Positions 32,572-41,719 of a DNA stretch of 64,000 nucleotides are shown piece after piece. Below the pieces are notes generated by a model, which was given only the letters and a program-made list of their open reading frames with translations, was not told the origin of the DNA and made no database searches. Position numbers and translations under genes: made by a program. The stretch comes from Vibrio sp. 05-20-BW147 (GTDB taxonomy: Bacteria > Pseudomonadota > Gammaproteobacteria > Enterobacterales > Vibrionaceae). How positions within the stretch are numbered: the first letter of the stretch is position 1; the number at the start of each line of letters is the position of its first letter. Location of the stretch: assembly GCF_013369385.1 (NCBI RefSeq), contig NZ_SZTO01000002.1:124001-188000 (forward strand). The letters run 5' to 3'.

Positions 32572-33990
32572 ATGCGCCCGTATCTGAAGTTTATTATCCC
32601 TATTATCATTCCGTTGATTGTGCTGTTGTTGCCATTGTCCGCCTTTCCGTTTGAAGCCATGACCATCGTGCAGCAACGTGTGATTGCCATTTTCTTATTG
32701 GCGGCACTGTGCTGGGTGTTTGAGCCAATTCCCATCTATGCCACGTCCGTCGTCATTATTGTTTTAGAGCTTTTATTGGTTTCCGATAAAGGTCTGTATC
32801 TATTCCGATTGAACGAGGGCAGTGAAAGCTTTGGGCAATTGCTCTCTTACAGTGAAATCATGGCAACCTTTGCCAGCCCAATCATCATGCTTTTCTTAGG
32901 TGGATTTTTCCTTGCAATGGCGGCCACCAAATACCGCTTGGATGTGAACTTGGCACGCGTGCTGCTCAAGCCATTTGGCCAAGACCCTAAATTCGTTATG
33001 TTGGGGCTGATGCTGATCACTGCGATTTTCTCGATGTTTATGTCTAACACCGCGACAACCGCGATGATGCTCTCCATCTTAACGCCAGTGATCGCGGTGT
33101 TTGGCCCCAAAGACCCAGGGCGAGTTGCCTTTGCGCTTTGTATTCCGGTTGCGGCCAACATTGGTGGCATTGGCACACCGATTGGTACGCCACCCAATGC
33201 CATCGCGCTAAAATATCTGGTGGGTGACAACCTGATCACATTTGGGGAATGGATGGCGTTTGGTGTTCCTTTTGTTGTGGTGATGATGGCGTTAGCGTGG
33301 TTTTTGATCACGGCGATGTATCGAGCAGACATTCCTAAGATAGAACTTTCTATAAAAGGTAAGTTTCTGAAAACACCGAAGGCGATTGTGGTGTATGTGA
33401 CGTTTGGTTTGACCATTTTGCTTTGGCTGATGGGGTCTGCACATGGCATGAATTCCTATACAGTCGCCCTGATTCCTGTCGCGATCTTTTCCATCACTGG
33501 CATCATTAACAAAGAAGATTTGAAGAAAATTTCCTGGGATGTGCTTTGGTTGGTTTCAGGCGGTATCGCCCTTGGTTTGGCTCTGGATAAAACAGGACTT
33601 GCCAAGCTGGTGGTGCACAGCATTCCATTTGATGAGTTTTCGCCTTATATCGTCTTGTTTGGTGCGGCGTTCCTCTGCTTAGTGATGGCGAACTTTATGT
33701 CGCATACTGCGACGGCGAACTTGCTGATGCCAATTATGGCCGCATTGGGGATGTCAATGACTTCTCTGGCTCCATTGGGCGGAGAAGTGACACTGATTTT
33801 AGTGGTGACGATGGCCGCTTCCTTAGGCATGTCGCTGCCTATCAGTACTCCGCCGAATGCATTGGCACATGCAACGGGTCATGTCCAAAGTAATCAAATG
33901 GCGCGTGTGGGCGTGATTTTGGGCGTTGTCGGCGTATTGCTCAGCTTTGTGATGGTTTGGATCCTTCATATGGTTGGACACATCGGGTAG
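32572..33990 (+). CDS. DASS/SLC13 family carboxylate:Na+ symporter
   Basis: 472 residues, with AGGAAGAG 9 bases upstream. About 11-12 TM segments plus two re-entrant hairpins. The two inverted-repeat substrate motifs are SNTATTAMM (about residue 161) and SHTATANLL (about 377). The second has His in place of the usual Asn of SNT. The following PP motifs are GTPIGTPPNAIAL and PISTPPNALAH. The family imports di- or tricarboxylates (succinate, citrate), and the altered motif could shift substrate. A sensor kinase and receiver follow within bases, implying that the transporter supplies or reports the signal. Confidence 0.92.
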   Translation: MRPYLKFIIPIIIPLIVLLLPLSAFPFEAMTIVQQRVIAIFLLAALCWVFEPIPIYATSVVIIVLELLLVSDKGLYLFRLNEGSESFGQLLSYSEIMATFASPIIMLFLGGFFLAMAATKYRLDVNLARVLLKPFGQDPKFVMLGLMLITAIFSMFMSNTATTAMMLSILTPVIAVFGPKDPGRVAFALCIPVAANIGGIGTPIGTPPNAIALKYLVGDNLITFGEWMAFGVPFVVVMMALAWFLITAMYRADIPKIELSIKGKFLKTPKAIVVYVTFGLTILLWLMGSAHGMNSYTVALIPVAIFSITGIINKEDLKKISWDVLWLVSGGIALGLALDKTGLAKLVVHSIPFDEFSPYIVLFGAAFLCLVMANFMSHTATANLLMPIMAALGMSMTSLAPLGGEVTLILVVTMAASLGMSLPISTPPNALAHATGHVQSNQMARVGVILGVVGVLLSFVMVWILHMVGHIG

Positions 33991-33994
33991 CCCC

Positions 33995-35350
33995 ATGTAT
34001 TTGAGCAAATTAGAAGCACTGATTGAGCGTTACTTCTGTAATCCAGAGCGTCAAATTACGTTGGAAGCGGGATCGGTCGTCATTGTGCAGCAAGGCTACA
34101 ACGACCGTCTGTTTTTCGTTCTTCAAGGTGAGCTGGAAGGTTACTTTTCTGAACATGAGGAGAAACAAGTACGCGTTTTTTCAGCCTCACAAGGGGCATT
34201 TATTGGCGTGCACAGTTTCTTTTCTGGTACTTGGACAGCATCGTCGACGGTGATGGCCAAGACCGAAGTGACACTGGCTTGGATTGATCGCAGCACGCCT
34301 GCCGTTGAAGTCGAAGAGTTCGGCCCGCTGACTACACAATTTATGCCGGTGATTGTGAATGAGCTTTCCCGCCGTCAAAGGCGAGCAACGCAAGAGGCGG
34401 TGGCCAAAGAGAAGGTGTTACAGAGGCTACATAACGCAGAGCAAATGACAACCTTAGGTCAACTTGCGGCGGGGCTGGCTCACGAGCTTAATAACGCCAT
34501 CGGGGTGGTCAGTAGCAAAGCCGAAAGACTCGAAACCATTATTCTGGAGCTGCTTGAAGAACGGCACCCAGAAGCCAGCCAATTCTTCGATATTGGACTG
34601 CTTGCGGGACAAAATGTGCCAACAAGCACCGCAAGACAAAATGCCAAGTTGTTGGAGCAGAAATATGGTTTGGAGAAAAAACAGGCCAAAGCATTAGCGA
34701 AAGCGATACCTGATGGTTTGGTTAGCCCGCACTGGTTGAACAACCCAGATCAAGCCATTCGTTATTGGGCAATGGGGTGTGATTTACACGACCTGCGTTT
34801 AGCAGCCAAACACACGGTTGGTATTGTGAAATCGGTCAAACAGCTCGGTAGGGCGGATTCGGATCGCATTAGCAAAGTTAATATTGGCGACACCATCAAT
34901 CAAGCCATCGCGCTTTTGCAAAGTGAGCTGCGCCGTGTCGAAGTGCGTCTTCGTCCATCACCTGTCGAATCGATTTGGGCTTCGGAGACCGAATTGGTGC
35001 AAGTTTGGGTCAATATCATCAAGAACGCCTGTGACGCGATGCAAAACACACTATCGCCGCAGTTGGAGATACGTGTTCATCAAGAAGGCAAGCGCATTTT
35101 GGTTACGATCGCCAACAATGGGCCTGCCTTAGATGAGGCAACAAGACGCAAAATTTTTCAGCCTAACTTCACCACCAAAAAAGGCGGGCTGTCATTTGGA
35201 CTGGGTTTAGGGTTATCGATTGTGAAGCGAATCGTCACCGGGCTAGGAGGCTCGATTGTGGTGAAAAGCGATGACCAAGCCACTATTTTTAGAATCAAAT
35301 TGCCAACAGAGGGAAATCATGGAGAAACTGAACCTAATATGCGTGGATGA
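33995..35350 (+). CDS. Cytosolic sensor histidine kinase with CNB-like N-terminal domain
   Basis: 451 residues from ATG 33995, only 4 bases after the transporter stop. An upstream in-frame TTG overlapping that stop is possible. Order: a cyclic-nucleotide-binding-like beta roll (about 10-120), helix, H box LAAGLAHELNNAIG with His163, an extra segment (about 180-270), then ATPase N box VWVNIIKNACDAM and G boxes (FGLGLGLSIVKRI). The CNB cassette GAFIGVHSFFSGTWTASS lacks the Glu and Arg that hold cAMP, so another ligand or a protein is likely. There are no TM segments. It overlaps the receiver gene by 32 bases. Confidence 0.9.
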   Translation: MYLSKLEALIERYFCNPERQITLEAGSVVIVQQGYNDRLFFVLQGELEGYFSEHEEKQVRVFSASQGAFIGVHSFFSGTWTASSTVMAKTEVTLAWIDRSTPAVEVEEFGPLTTQFMPVIVNELSRRQRRATQEAVAKEKVLQRLHNAEQMTTLGQLAAGLAHELNNAIGVVSSKAERLETIILELLEERHPEASQFFDIGLLAGQNVPTSTARQNAKLLEQKYGLEKKQAKALAKAIPDGLVSPHWLNNPDQAIRYWAMGCDLHDLRLAAKHTVGIVKSVKQLGRADSDRISKVNIGDTINQAIALLQSELRRVEVRLRPSPVESIWASETELVQVWVNIIKNACDAMQNTLSPQLEIRVHQEGKRILVTIANNGPALDEATRRKIFQPNFTTKKGGLSFGLGLGLSIVKRIVTGLGGSIVVKSDDQATIFRIKLPTEGNHGETEPNMRG

Positions 35351-35795
35351 TCAGCGCGAAGTGCTTAATGCGGTGGTGCAGGATCTAGACGGTTTAGCTG
35401 ACTGGCTAAATATTGAAGAGTGTGAATCTGGCCATGAAGCGTTGGAGCTGATCGATGAGCTTGATGCGGATGGCGAGTTTATCGCTGTGGTGATTTCAGA
35501 CCACGTGATGCCGGGAATGACCGGTGTCGAGCTTTTACGAACATTGCACACGGATGCTCGATTCTTCAAAACACGCAAGGTATTGCTCACAGGGCAAGCC
35601 ACGCATAGCGATACCATCGAAGCGATCAATTCCGCTGGTATTGTGCGCTATTTCGAAAAACCTTGGAAAAAACAAGAACTCGTACAGTGCATTCGCGAAT
35701 TGATGACCGATTTTATTTTCGATCAGGGACTGGATTACCAGATTTGGCATGATGAACTGGATCAAGCGGGCGTGCTGAAACATCTGCATCCATAA
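35319..35795 (+). CDS. Single-domain response regulator
   Basis: 158 residues from ATG 35319 (MEKLNLICVDDQREV), with AGAGGGAAATC just before it inside the kinase gene. A receiver domain only: acidic pair D10/D11, phospho-Asp61 (VISDHVMPGMTG), Thr in VLLTGQA, Lys in YFEKPWKK. About 30 C-terminal residues (FDQGLDYQIWHDELDQAG) are not a DNA-binding domain. It must act by protein contact or phosphotransfer. It is translated with the kinase, so it is the presumed partner. Confidence 0.9.
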   Translation: MEKLNLICVDDQREVLNAVVQDLDGLADWLNIEECESGHEALELIDELDADGEFIAVVISDHVMPGMTGVELLRTLHTDARFFKTRKVLLTGQATHSDTIEAINSAGIVRYFEKPWKKQELVQCIRELMTDFIFDQGLDYQIWHDELDQAGVLKHLHP

Positions 35796-36005
35796 TCAAT
35801 AGGCATCGAGTGCCCTAAGTCTCATGATGCTAATGTCATTTAGGGCCGCGCCTAAGAAGAGAAAACGGGGAGCGGAAGGCTAACATTCCCCAAGAAGCGC
35901 GATGTTGGCGCAGGTCGTAAAAACCGGAAAAAGCGCCATCCTCCTAACCGCGCCAATATGCTTATACCTATTTGTTCAAGGAACGCTTTGTTCTGGTACG
36001 AATGT
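35796..36005. other. Non-coding stretch after the receiver gene
   Basis: No credible ORF is present. CCCTAA (35813-35818) and TTAGGG (35840-35845) can pair, followed by a purine-rich GGGG/GGAAGG region and several GCGC elements. It does not match a riboswitch or sRNA that I know. It could hold the 3' ends of both convergent transcripts. Confidence 0.35.
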
Positions 36006-37174: not shown

Positions 37175-38407
37175 GTGTTGGAAAATGTCTTGAATATGCA
37201 GTATGACCCTGAAAAATCGATAAAAGTAGATATTTCAAACTTAACGATTGGCATGTTTGTCACCGCTATTGAAAATAGTGAACGGGTTAATTTGGCTAAC
37301 GCTGGGCGTGTTCAGTCAGAAAAAGCCATTACCCGCTTATTTGAAAGTGGGGTGAAGTTTGTGTGGGTAGACGCAGGCTTATCGGCTAAAAATTGTGTGA
37401 TTAAACCAGCGCCAAAGGTTGATAACACTGAGTGGCAAGCCGTGACAGAATCCCATTCACCAACGCCACGTAAGCAGCCAAAGAGTCGCGCCTCTAACCA
37501 AAAGAAAGCTAAAAAACTTATCGCAGAAGCTAAAGGCCTAGCTCAGAAGCTCCTTAATCAAACTTTTGAAGGCAAAGTGATTCTGGTTGATGAGATTGAG
37601 GACTGGGCTGAGGATATGATAGAAGCTGCCTTGGTGGATTCAGATGCCTTGCAGTGTGTTTCTGCCTTACGCCAAAAGGACACCTATTTGCTTGAACATT
37701 CGGTGAATGTCGCTTGTTTGTTAGTGACTTTCGGCAAGCATTTGGGCTTAGAGCGCGAAACGCTCAAACAGATGGCGATAGGTGGGATCATTCACGATAT
37801 CGGCAAGATCAAAGTAAATGATGAAGTGTTGCATAAACCAGCGCGATTAACGCCTGAAGAGTTTGAACACATGAAGCTCCATCAGGTGTTTGCCGAAGAG
37901 ATCATTGTGCATGTTGAAGGGCTAAGCGATGTGAGCCGTGACGTCTGTTTAATGCACCATGAAAAGCTTGATGGAAATGGTTACCCCAAAGGGCTAAAAG
38001 GGGATGAAATACCACTCCATGGTCGTATGAGTTGTATCGTTGATATCTATGATGCGCTCACGGCAGACCGATGCTACAAGCAAGGCATGAGCTCTGCCGA
38101 AGCCTTTAAAATCATACTCGGCTTAACCCCATTTCACTTAGATCCTGATCTGGTTTACAAATTCATTAACTGCATTGGCGTGTATCCAGTTGGTTCTATT
38201 GTCGAATTGAACGATGGTCGAGTGGGAATCGTCTGGACCTCTAACCCGACTCAACCATTGAAGCCGGAAGTGAAGTGTTTCTACTCGCGTAAATACAAAC
38301 GTTTTGTCGATGTGGCAATGGTAGATTTAAAACACAACGCGCTAAAGATTGAAAAAGCGGTGGCACCTGCATGCTTAGATGTCGATGCTAGGCCGTTTTA
38401 TGATTAG
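37175..38407 (+). CDS. DUF3391 + HD-GYP domain protein (c-di-GMP phosphodiesterase family)
   Basis: 410 residues from GTG 37175; ATG 37196 (MQYDPEKSIKVDISNL) is an alternative start. The N-terminal DUF3391 region spans about 12-130 with the typical VDISNLTIGMFVTAIE. HD-GYP at about 160-340 shows EHSVNVACLL, HD in IIHDIGKIKVND, HHEKLDGNGYPKGLKGDEI and DIYDALTADRCYK. All expected metal ligands are present, so hydrolysis of c-di-GMP is likely. It is soluble with no TM. A long Lys/Gln-rich linker (SPTPRKQPKSRASNQKK) joins the parts. It shares a terminator with the hns gene. Confidence 0.93.
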   Translation: MLENVLNMQYDPEKSIKVDISNLTIGMFVTAIENSERVNLANAGRVQSEKAITRLFESGVKFVWVDAGLSAKNCVIKPAPKVDNTEWQAVTESHSPTPRKQPKSRASNQKKAKKLIAEAKGLAQKLLNQTFEGKVILVDEIEDWAEDMIEAALVDSDALQCVSALRQKDTYLLEHSVNVACLLVTFGKHLGLERETLKQMAIGGIIHDIGKIKVNDEVLHKPARLTPEEFEHMKLHQVFAEEIIVHVEGLSDVSRDVCLMHHEKLDGNGYPKGLKGDEIPLHGRMSCIVDIYDALTADRCYKQGMSSAEAFKIILGLTPFHLDPDLVYKFINCIGVYPVGSIVELNDGRVGIVWTSNPTQPLKPEVKCFYSRKYKRFVDVAMVDLKHNALKIEKAVAPACLDVDARPFYD

Positions 38408-39469: not shown

Positions 39470-39645
39470 TATCGCCGTAGAGGCGCAATGGTAAAGAGTA
39501 GCTATTATTGGGGTGATGCCAATGAATAATAGTGAAAGGTGTCCATTGCCGAAGTGAGTTGCATATCAAAGCTTCTTGCTGGGGTTGCATCCGAAAGGAA
39601 CAACACTGCCATAGTATTTAACTTATAACTATGGAGCGCTACTGT
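39470..39645 (+). promoter_or_regulatory. Lysine riboswitch (L box)
   Basis: Conserved elements appear in order: GTAGAGGCGCAATGGTAAAG (39477-39496) with AGAGTAGC close behind, GGGTGATGCC (39511-39520), GTCCATTGCCGAAG (39541-39554), GGGGTTGCATCCGAAAGGAA (39581-39600), then CAACACTGCCATAG (39601-39614) and the closing TATGGAGCGCTACTGTA (39629-39645) that pairs back to the 5' GTAGAGGCGC region. This is the five-helix lysine aptamer pattern. No strong terminator follows, so control could be at translation or by a weak stem (GAAGTG/CACTTC near 39655-39668). It regulates the NhaC-family carrier. Confidence 0.87.
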
Positions 39646-39757
39646 AGGTTGGGTGAAGTGTCCACTTCCCTGTCGCTTAGTTCAACATAAGTATCGAAAT
39701 AAGTTCGTATACTTTGTCTGCAGTAGATCTCTAGCCAAACTTTGGTTTTTGAAGATC

Positions 39758-41359
39758 ATGAATTTAATAGATTTTGCTACATCTCCCATTTCACTTTTGC
39801 CGCCGATAGTGGCACTGACGCTAGCCATTTTAACGCGTAAAGTGCTTGTATCGCTCGGTGTCGGTATTCTTCTAGGTGCAGTGTTACTGAATGATTATTC
39901 GGTAGGCTCTGCGGCAGCTTATATTACAGATAAAGTTTCAGCTGTTTTTATTGAAGATGGTGGCATCAATACTTGGAATATGAGTATTGTTGGTTTCTTG
40001 TTGTTATTGGGTATGACCACCGCTCTACTGACTCTTTCTGGAGGCACTCGAGCTTTTGCTGAATGGGCACAGACTCGAGTGAAAAGTAAGCGAGGTTCGA
40101 AATTACTAGCAGCGTTTTTAGGCGTATTCATTTTTGTAGACGACTATTTCAATAGCCTAGCTGTAGGTGCGATTTCTCGCCCAGTAACGGACCGCTTTTA
40201 TGTTTCACGCGCCAAACTTGCTTATATTCTAGACTCAACAGCAGCACCAATGTGTGTGGTGATGCCTGCATCGAGTTGGGGTGCGTACATCATGACCATT
40301 ATCGGCGGTATTTTGGTGTCACATGGCATCACTGAATATTCCGCATTAGGCGCATATCTACGTTTAGTACCGATGAACTTCTACGCGATTTTCGCCTTGT
40401 TAATGGTGTTTGCGGTCGCTTGGTTTGGTTTAGACATTGGTAAAATGCGTGAACATGAAATTGCTGCCTCACAAGGCCGTGGCTTTGACAATGACGCTGA
40501 TACTGACCTAAAAGAAGCGCATGAAATTGACGAAGAGCTTGATATCCGTGAAAGCGATAAAGGTAAAGTAACCGATCTTGTTATGCCGATCATTGCTTTG
40601 ATTATTGCAACGGTCGCTTCAATGCTCTATACCGGTGGCCAAGCACTTGCGGCCGATGGTAAAGCGTTCGACTTGCTTGGTGCATTCGAAAATACCAACG
40701 TAGGTACATCGCTGATTTATGGTGGTCTGGTTGGTTTGGCTGTGGCCTTGTTCACCGTGTTCAAACAAGGTCTTCCAGTTGCAGAAATTGCTCGTACTTT
40801 ATGGATCGGTGCTAAATCGATGTTTGGTGCAATCCTTATTCTGATTTTCGCCTGGACTATCGGTTCGGTTATTGGCGACATGAAAACAGGTAGCTACTTG
40901 TCTTCTATGGCACAAGGCAATATTAACCCTCATTGGTTACCCGTAATTTTATTCTTGCTTTCAGGTTTGATGGCGTTTTCTACCGGAACATCGTGGGGCA
41001 CGTTTGGGATTATGCTACCTATCGCGGGTGATATGGCGGGTGCGACAGATATCGCTCTTATGCTTCCTATGCTAAGTGCAGTATTAGCGGGTTCTGTTTT
41101 TGGTGATCACTGTTCACCGATTTCTGATACGACGATTCTTTCTTCAACGGGCGCACGTTGTCATCATATTGACCACGTAGCGACTCAGTTGCCTTATGCA
41201 CTTGCAGTGGCATTGGTTTCTTGTATTGGTTTCGTGGTATTGGGTATGACCGCTTCCGTTATGTTCTCACTGGCGGCTGCAACCATGGCATTCATCATCG
41301 TTTGTGCAATCCTCTCTTGGTTGTCAAAAGCAAAGATTGAGTCTTGCCAACAAGCGTAA
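39758..41359 (+). CDS. NhaC-family carrier under a lysine riboswitch (probable lysine transporter, LysW type)
   Basis: 533 residues from ATG 39758 (MNLIDFATSPISLLPPIVAL), with GAAG just upstream; the frame is open upstream only because it crosses the leader. About 12 TM segments. Motifs such as IFVDDYFNSLAVGAISRPVTD, SWGAYIM, FSTGTSWGTFGIMLPIAGD and VFGDHCSPISDTTILSSTGA are those of the NhaC/ArsB-like ion transporter superfamily. By sequence it would be called a Na+/H+ antiporter. The lysine riboswitch in front instead supports lysine import, as proposed by comparative genomics for LysW proteins. Confidence 0.92.
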   Translation: MNLIDFATSPISLLPPIVALTLAILTRKVLVSLGVGILLGAVLLNDYSVGSAAAYITDKVSAVFIEDGGINTWNMSIVGFLLLLGMTTALLTLSGGTRAFAEWAQTRVKSKRGSKLLAAFLGVFIFVDDYFNSLAVGAISRPVTDRFYVSRAKLAYILDSTAAPMCVVMPASSWGAYIMTIIGGILVSHGITEYSALGAYLRLVPMNFYAIFALLMVFAVAWFGLDIGKMREHEIAASQGRGFDNDADTDLKEAHEIDEELDIRESDKGKVTDLVMPIIALIIATVASMLYTGGQALAADGKAFDLLGAFENTNVGTSLIYGGLVGLAVALFTVFKQGLPVAEIARTLWIGAKSMFGAILILIFAWTIGSVIGDMKTGSYLSSMAQGNINPHWLPVILFLLSGLMAFSTGTSWGTFGIMLPIAGDMAGATDIALMLPMLSAVLAGSVFGDHCSPISDTTILSSTGARCHHIDHVATQLPYALAVALVSCIGFVVLGMTASVMFSLAAATMAFIIVCAILSWLSKAKIESCQQA

Positions 41360-41516: not shown

Positions 41517-41564
41517 ATGCGTAATTTTGTAATGAACATTCATCACCATCATCACCCAGTCTAG
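41517..41564 (+). CDS. hisL: his operon leader peptide
   Basis: 15 residues, MRNFVMNIHHHHHPV, ending at TAG 41562-41564. Five consecutive His codons (CAT CAC CAT CAT CAC) make it a histidine-starvation sensor. Ribosome stalling here would favour the upstream anti-terminator stem over the terminator at 41638-41675. A second in-frame ATG at 41532 could also start it. The ribosome site is weak (AAGAG about 11 bases upstream). Confidence 0.88.
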   Translation: MRNFVMNIHHHHHPV

Positions 41565-41585
41565 TCTTTCGGGAGATGTACGCAT

Positions 41586-41675
41586 ACCCGGGAGATAGGA
41601 AACTCCCGGAGGTGAAAATCATCAAATTCAGATTTTAAACCCTCGGGAGACCAACATCTCTCGAGGGTTTTTTAG
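41586..41675 (+). promoter_or_regulatory. his attenuator: pause/anti-terminator stems and terminator
   Basis: A first stem pairs ACCCGGGAG (41585-41593) with CTCCCGGAGGT (41603-41613). The terminator pairs AACCCTCGGGAGA (41638-41650) with TCTCTCGAGGGTT (41657-41669), followed by a T run. The repeated CGGGAGA/CTCCCG/TCTCGAG segments allow alternative pairing, the usual attenuation layout. It acts on hisGDCBHAFI. Confidence 0.85.
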
Positions 41676-41719
41676 TTTTCACTTTCATCATTTTCAAATT
41701 GAAGCACAGGGACAATGTC

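Follow-up and report, generated by a model that had tools for sequence, protein, structure and literature searches.

A stand-alone receiver as a candidate regulatory partner of a DASS/SLC13 transporter in Vibrio

The DNA considered here is a stretch of 64,000 nucleotides from Vibrio sp. 05-20-BW147 (contig NZ_SZTO01000002.1, positions 124,001 to 188,000; hereafter the window, whose own numbering is used throughout), which carries three intact genes on the same strand, in the order transporter, kinase, receiver: a DASS/SLC13-family anion symporter, a histidine kinase with a cyclic-nucleotide-binding (CNB) domain and a receiver standing on its own. The comparison of related genomes leads us to suggest, from sequence and with a probability of about one half, that this receiver is the dedicated regulatory partner of the neighbouring DASS transporter, normally switched by phosphorylation, and that the locus forms a transporter-control module. 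The suggestion starts from the fact that loss of the kinase usually leaves receiver and transporter side by side, so that the receiver may regulate the transporter itself. The features on which the argument draws are as follows.

32572..33990 (+): DASS/SLC13-family anion symporter, 472 residues (TIGR00785, Na_sulph_symp; PDB relatives; motifs)
33995..35350 (+): CNB-domain histidine kinase, 451 residues (cNMP_binding and HATPase_c above cut-off; AlphaFold2 model, pLDDT 82)
34052..34306 (+): CNB-like roll of the kinase (residues 20-104), without the canonical phosphate-cassette Glu/Arg (profile, model, alignment)
34481..34483 (+): kinase His163 of the H box (GLAHELNN), invariant in alignments
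34568..34738 (+): kinase helical insert (residues 192-248) between the two DHp helices (AlphaFold2 model, alignment)
35319..35795 (+): stand-alone receiver, 158 residues (Response_reg 65 bits; AlphaFold2 model, pLDDT 93.9)
35499..35501 (+): predicted phospho-acceptor Asp61 of the receiver (alignments), lost in six DASS-adjacent relatives
35727..35786 (+): C-terminal helical tail of the receiver (residues 137-156; helices 140-146 and 149-156), family-specific and retained in pseudo-receivers (alignment, model)

The coupling of the three genes, which a first-pass annotation had proposed from the window alone, is borne out by gene order. Kinase orthologues were sought in 60 relatives of the host genome and in a 345-genome sample of its order, which added 26 further kinase genomes, giving 48 distinct kinase-bearing relatives; in 43 of these, transporter and kinase are neighbours, four have kinase and receiver alone, and one lies at a contig edge where no judgement can be made. 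Orthologous kinases are thus found mostly with the transporter, contrary to the outcome that the annotation had named as telling against it. Among the 60 host relatives the orthologous kinase occurs in 22, all of which show the order transporter-kinase-receiver (with split frames in L042 and L051). A scan of named loci, taken at its best 80, places the triple in Vibrio, in Aliivibrio, with A. fischeri (L212) as an example, and in Photobacterium, Enterovibrio, Motilimonas, one Shewanella and one metagenome-assembled genome (MAG) of Gynuella, as well as in seven Bacteroidota (e.g., Flexithrix, Reichenbachiella) and two Deltaproteobacteria MAG loci (L257, L268); in one Bacteroidota order the transporter is present in 6 of 241 genomes, five of which carry the triple. 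The triple is conserved far beyond chance, and the idea that the kinase is a lineage-specific addition was dropped, given that Bacteroidota and Deltaproteobacteria have the complete triple too. In the class-level samples outside the order no kinase orthologue was found and the transporter subtype was present in 0 of 273 other genomes; the six distant kinases recovered there match only over the DHp insert and the ATPase part.

The association of transporter and receiver goes further than that of the triple. In the order sample, 59 genomes carry the transporter subtype (66 matches minus seven with a second subtype only), and a receiver adjoins it in 52, with the kinase between them in only 25. 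The remaining 27 pairs comprise four from genomes with kinase and receiver elsewhere, 14 from genomes whose only related kinase is a paralogous one of 650 residues, and nine from genomes with neither kinase (at thresholds E 1e-50 and 1e-90); where kinase and transporter are apart, as in those four genomes, each has its own receiver. The pair stays adjacent when its order is reversed, the receiver then lying upstream of the transporter (L183-L185), and when it is duplicated in tandem (L173, L174, L178, L179, L182). The best 80 named loci divide into 49 triples, 11 transporter-receiver pairs lacking the kinase and 20 with neither partner (13 of the second subtype, four from Aeromonas, one Desulfovibrio MAG, one truncated and L259, described below), so that a receiver lies beside the transporter subtype in 60 of 66 non-truncated loci. 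The second DASS subtype, which is closer to the host's own paralogue, serves as a control: all 13 of its named loci lack both receiver and kinase. Enterovibrio, in which the kinase is absent from three of these loci, intact in one and in two frames in another, looks like a case of kinase loss in progress. The first-pass annotation had left the output path open, there being no DNA-binding regulator; the greater durability of transporter plus receiver over transporter plus kinase makes the transporter itself a candidate output.

What happened to the receiver after kinase loss is informative as well. Asp61 is lost in six of the 52 transporter-adjacent receivers of the order sample (G380, G398, G442, G570; G429, G455), hereafter pseudo-receivers, all from the nine genomes with neither related kinase, against none from the 43 genomes with one. 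In the DASS tree the six Asp-less rows occupy two separate positions, each fixed by starred branches, which gives two independent losses; four of them form one clade (100/100) with the three Vibrio rows that lack a kinase, and this clade lies within a set of otherwise kinase-bearing rows (100/96; 99/92). The receiver tree shows the same nesting of this kinase-less (V+P4) clade (100/98 within 95/89), and its position among kinase-bearing lineages in both trees points to a shared transporter-receiver history there. Along the Asp-less clade the receiver branches are long (about 0.8 plus 1.0), as against short transporter branches (0.24 plus 0.13-0.19). The ratio of nonsynonymous to synonymous rates is 0.066 (L183/L184), 0.081 and 0.084 (L170/L171 and L171/L172), the other pseudo-receiver pairs being saturated at synonymous sites or nearly identical; such purifying selection argues that pseudo-receivers are not decaying pseudogenes. 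Change is also unevenly spread: identity to kinase-linked receivers in the active-site loops is 14, 6 and 28% in the four-genome pseudo-receiver clade against 74, 81 and 55% in the intact clade, whereas in alpha5 and the tail it is 42 and 44% against 36 and 38%. The 60 receivers among the best 80 named loci include 55 with the full DDDTK set, two with EDDTK, two degenerate (L252 and L250, probably the same organisms as G380 and G429) and one of a Ser type (L237). A separate observation comes from a proteobacterial MAG (L259 2489-4395), where a degenerate receiver overlaps a DASS gene (58% to that of the window) at its start, the pair sitting after a sigma54-type regulator with its kinase; this receiver scores 61.5 bits, below the cut used, has Ser in the phospho-Asp column and has lost the Lys, and it may represent a third, independent pseudo-receiver next to a DASS transporter.

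The receiver of the window carries all the standard residues (D10, D11, D61, T91, K114), and Response_reg (65 bits) is its sole domain above cut-off, in agreement with the earlier description of a receiver lacking an output domain. In its AlphaFold2 model (predicted local distance difference test, pLDDT, 93.9) the C-terminal end consists of an extended alpha5 followed by a tail of two short helices. Over 53 transporter-adjacent receivers, 11 positions are unchanged (C8, D10, S60, L73, I100, A102, N104, A106, W116, L121, D148), seven of which fall in alpha4, the beta5-alpha5 link, alpha5 or the tail. A NosR-type cyclic di-GMP output of the receiver was rejected: the match covers the receiver part only and, at 92.7 bits, falls short of the cut-off of 400, and no receiver partner domain is present in the HD-GYP gene at 37175.

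The kinase runs from the CNB domain (cNMP_binding, PF00027, 36.9 bits against a cut-off of 27.5) through a DHp hairpin to HATPase_c (67.2 bits), and a profile search found no transmembrane domain family in it. Glu and Arg of the phosphate cassette bind cyclic nucleotide in canonical CNB domains; aligned with PKG and PKA, the window kinase has both replaced (GVHSFF..TWTASS for the GERALL..EPRSA of the PKG repeats), as had been noted from its letters. HisKA stays below cut-off (15.4 against 26.9 bits), and since the modelled hairpin is interrupted by a helical insert, we take this as the mark of a DHp variant and not as evidence against kinase activity; H163, E164, N166 and N167 are invariant in a 13-row alignment, the first two also in one of 32 rows. 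In the model (mean pLDDT 82; predicted template modelling score 0.50, which makes domain placement uncertain) a single long helix, 117-190, bears His163, the insert helices span 192-248 and the second DHp helix spans 251-285. The extra segment after the H box that the earlier reading put at about 90 residues is therefore present but nearer 60. According to the alignment, the paralogous 650-residue kinase shares it, and visual inspection shows it in distant kinases whose N-termini differ. Structure searches returned generic kinases and generic receivers.

The transporter passes its family profile (TIGR00785 dass, 258 bits against a cut-off of 198.6; Na_sulph_symp, 154.7 bits) and has PHO90 and VcINDY as PDB relatives. 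SNT-type and TPPN-type motifs define the substrate site of DASS/SLC13 proteins, and the window protein has SNTATT (158-163), IGTPPN, SHTATA (377-382) and ISTPPN, the second of the SNT-type motifs being SHT. A substrate call from SHT against SNT was dropped, both variants occurring inside the receiver-linked group. Next to one homologue without a receiver (L255, 61%) lie genes for fumarase and for proteins of the fumarate reductase/succinate dehydrogenase type; from the family and the neighbours of this one homologue our guess is a C4-dicarboxylate. A position scan for a docking site yielded 24 subtype-specific positions, which are suggestive only; at R122, Arg occupies 99% of 114 receiver-linked rows, Glu or Asp 19 of 21 second-subtype rows, and mostly His is seen in Aeromonas.

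It is tempting to assemble these parts into the following scheme, in which we infer the phosphotransfer, the physical contact with the transporter, the direction and sign of control and the substrate. The cytoplasmic CNB-type kinase would respond to a cytoplasmic cue other than canonical cyclic AMP binding and would phosphorylate the stand-alone receiver on Asp61; the receiver would then act directly on the DASS transporter, and not on DNA, through its alpha4-beta5-alpha5 face and family-specific tail, and so tune the transport of an anion, probably a C4-dicarboxylate. Where kinases were lost, the receiver would have stayed by the transporter, as a pseudo-receiver in six genomes. Direct control of the transporter would account at once for the missing DNA-binding partner, for a pair that outlives its kinase and for a tail that is kept while the phospho-site is not.

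A paralogous kinase system bears on this scheme. Outside the window, the host genome encodes (L059 7439-9872), near a serC-like gene, a 647-residue kinase together with a 165-residue receiver, the kinase being laid out as degenerate receiver, CNB, DHp with insert and HATPase. The paralogous 650-residue kinase stands mostly without a transporter, which is found upstream in one of 11 loci; at that locus (L063 5870-9927) a second-subtype DASS gene (55%) lies just upstream of the kinase-receiver pair. The receiver profile matches the N-terminus of the kinase at 64-67 bits in three of four tested, L063 being the one unmatched. In all 12 Psychromonas-type genomes with this kinase, the transporter-linked receivers are the sole members of their family (E <= 1e-14; G414 has two), so that the 650-residue kinase may serve them. 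Rather less firmly than the partnership itself, we can imagine the receiver as a regulatory subunit of SLC13/DASS carriers, phospho-switched and, after kinase loss, constitutive, and its receiver-plus-tail unit as having come to serve again, in a degenerate version, as the input domain of the paralogous kinase.

Several observations weigh against such a regulatory role of the receiver. Of the nine kinase-less genomes, the remaining three, all Vibrio, keep Asp61, with Ser for Thr91 and a rewritten loop, so that an unlinked kinase or a small phosphodonor may still serve them. Fisher's test of Asp loss against kinase absence (4e-6, with related genomes counted as independent) overstates the association because it rests on two events. 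The transporter subtype lacks an adjacent receiver in all seven Aeromonas-type genomes of the order sample (L189-L195), at four Aeromonas and one Desulfovibrio locus among the best 80, and in one of the six Bacteroidota-order genomes (L288), which has neither kinase nor receiver nearby; conversely, the Psychromonas-type genome G047 has kept the receiver and lost the transporter. The DASS gene upstream of the paralogous pair in L063 may be there by chance, the specificity residues of the transporter are weak as evidence of docking, and a co-sensor role of the transporter could coexist with its control by the receiver.

That last role was raised as a possibility by the first-pass annotation; in such a case the DASS protein would report substrate flux to the kinase, as DctA or DcuB does to DcuS, and the receiver would signal to an unlinked effector. 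Such a role would fit the 43 of 48 relatives with the transporter beside the kinase, the DctA-DcuS precedent (PMC6978683, PMC4280142) and a kinase lacking any transmembrane family match, for which a membrane partner would supply the input. The analysis has lent it no support, for on separation the transporter keeps the receiver and not the kinase, the transporter retains a neighbouring pseudo-receiver in genomes that have no related kinase, and kinase and receiver lie away from the transporter in four genomes; with transporter and receiver as the durable pair, we regard co-sensing as unlikely. A two-way arrangement, in which the receiver (or a degenerate version of it) would be a docking adaptor on the transporter that lets a kinase read the transporter and feed back on it, and in which the N-terminal domain of the 650-residue kinase would itself be a degenerate receiver bearing that tail, appears a little less probable still: the profile matches to the 650-residue kinase (three of four) and the Psychromonas-type genomes (12 of 12) speak for it, but it relies on domain resemblance and elimination. 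About equally improbable is mere operon inheritance, whereby co-transcription holds the genes together and the receiver is a phosphate sink or acts on a distant target. The short intergenic distances would agree with this, as would the pair moving as a block, which the grouping of the f12 rows with Vibrio rows in both trees may reflect; yet it leaves unexplained the survival of the pair through kinase loss and order reversal and the purifying selection on pseudo-receivers, and a phosphate sink requires the receiver Asp. Regulation of the transporter by its receiver remains the reading we prefer.

As to the locus itself, the kinase starts with the ATG at 33995 (the TTG at 33974 being a possible alternative) and the receiver with that at 35319 (a further in-frame ATG lies at 35271); the spacing is as first described, with four bases from the transporter stop to the kinase ATG and an overlap of 32 bases between the kinase stop and the receiver ATG. 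A scan of the locus gave no promoter-like site, and four terminator-like sites against 4.4 expected. Behind the receiver gene lie imperfect inverted repeats (35812-35846 and 35901-35959) with no Rfam match. Two genes from the receiver, an HD-GYP-like protein with DUF3391 is encoded (37175-38407); such a gene occurs near only one of the relatives' loci examined (L031), and we accordingly claim no link with the module. Farther on are a lysine riboswitch (127.9 bits, 39470-39649), directly 5' of a Na+/H+-antiporter-family gene (39653-41359), and a histidine operon leader (89.6 bits, 41540-41676) ahead of a gene run starting at 41699. An initial equation of the window system with V. cholerae VC1314-VC1316 was ruled out, that locus being listed in a paper as Zra-type. 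By its position, the paralogous pair at L059 may be V. cholerae VC1156-7/VC1155. For VC1156-7/VC1155, effects on vpsL and on colonisation are reported (PMC10237652 and PMC4441509).

Searches of an open-access library, which does not extend to subscription papers, yielded no report that combines a DASS transporter, a CNB kinase and a bare receiver, nor one of a receiver controlling a secondary transporter. The parts belong to known families; the new element is a two-component system with a carrier as its likely output. Single-domain receivers often lack a known target, and related genomes here offer a graded natural series, from transporter-kinase-receiver through transporter-receiver with the kinase lost to transporter-pseudo-receiver. 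If the receiver does control the carrier, signalling would reach uptake with no transcription step, and bacteria would provide the SLC13 family, to which human carriers of citrate and dicarboxylates belong, with an example of a protein regulator that could be co-purified with its carrier.

Among known systems, VcINDY shares family and motifs with the window transporter, which differs by SHT for the second SNT, although SNT also occurs in the receiver-linked group; we know of no receiver partner of VcINDY. In CbrA/CrbS a histidine kinase is coupled to an SLC5 transporter, the two being fused in one protein with a DNA-binding or other output; the coupling is alike, whereas the fusion and the transporter family are not. 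Pseudo-receivers lacking phosphorylation residues are known to remain functional, and the 2025 review that says so calls their control a mystery (PMC12632262); the word "transporter" is absent from its main text. Here, by contrast, a single clade shows decay following the absence of a kinase, with the genomic partner still in place. The DcuS-DcuR system of E. coli, which serves C4-dicarboxylates with DctA or DcuB, likewise joins transporter, kinase and response regulator in one unit, and tripartite complexes are reported (PMC4280142, PMC6978683). In that system, however, a transcription factor serves as the regulator and the kinase takes its input from the transporter, while the window system has a regulator with no output domain, a soluble CNB kinase, a DASS transporter and a transporter-receiver pair that persists. 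A precedent is EpsW of Myxococcus xanthus, a single-domain response regulator that controls the membrane enzyme EpsZ by direct contact (PMC12802240). Its target is a phosphoglycosyl transferase, its kinase is of the chemosensory CheA type and no transporter is involved, but there, as proposed for the window system from genomic co-inheritance, a single-domain regulator acts on a membrane protein.

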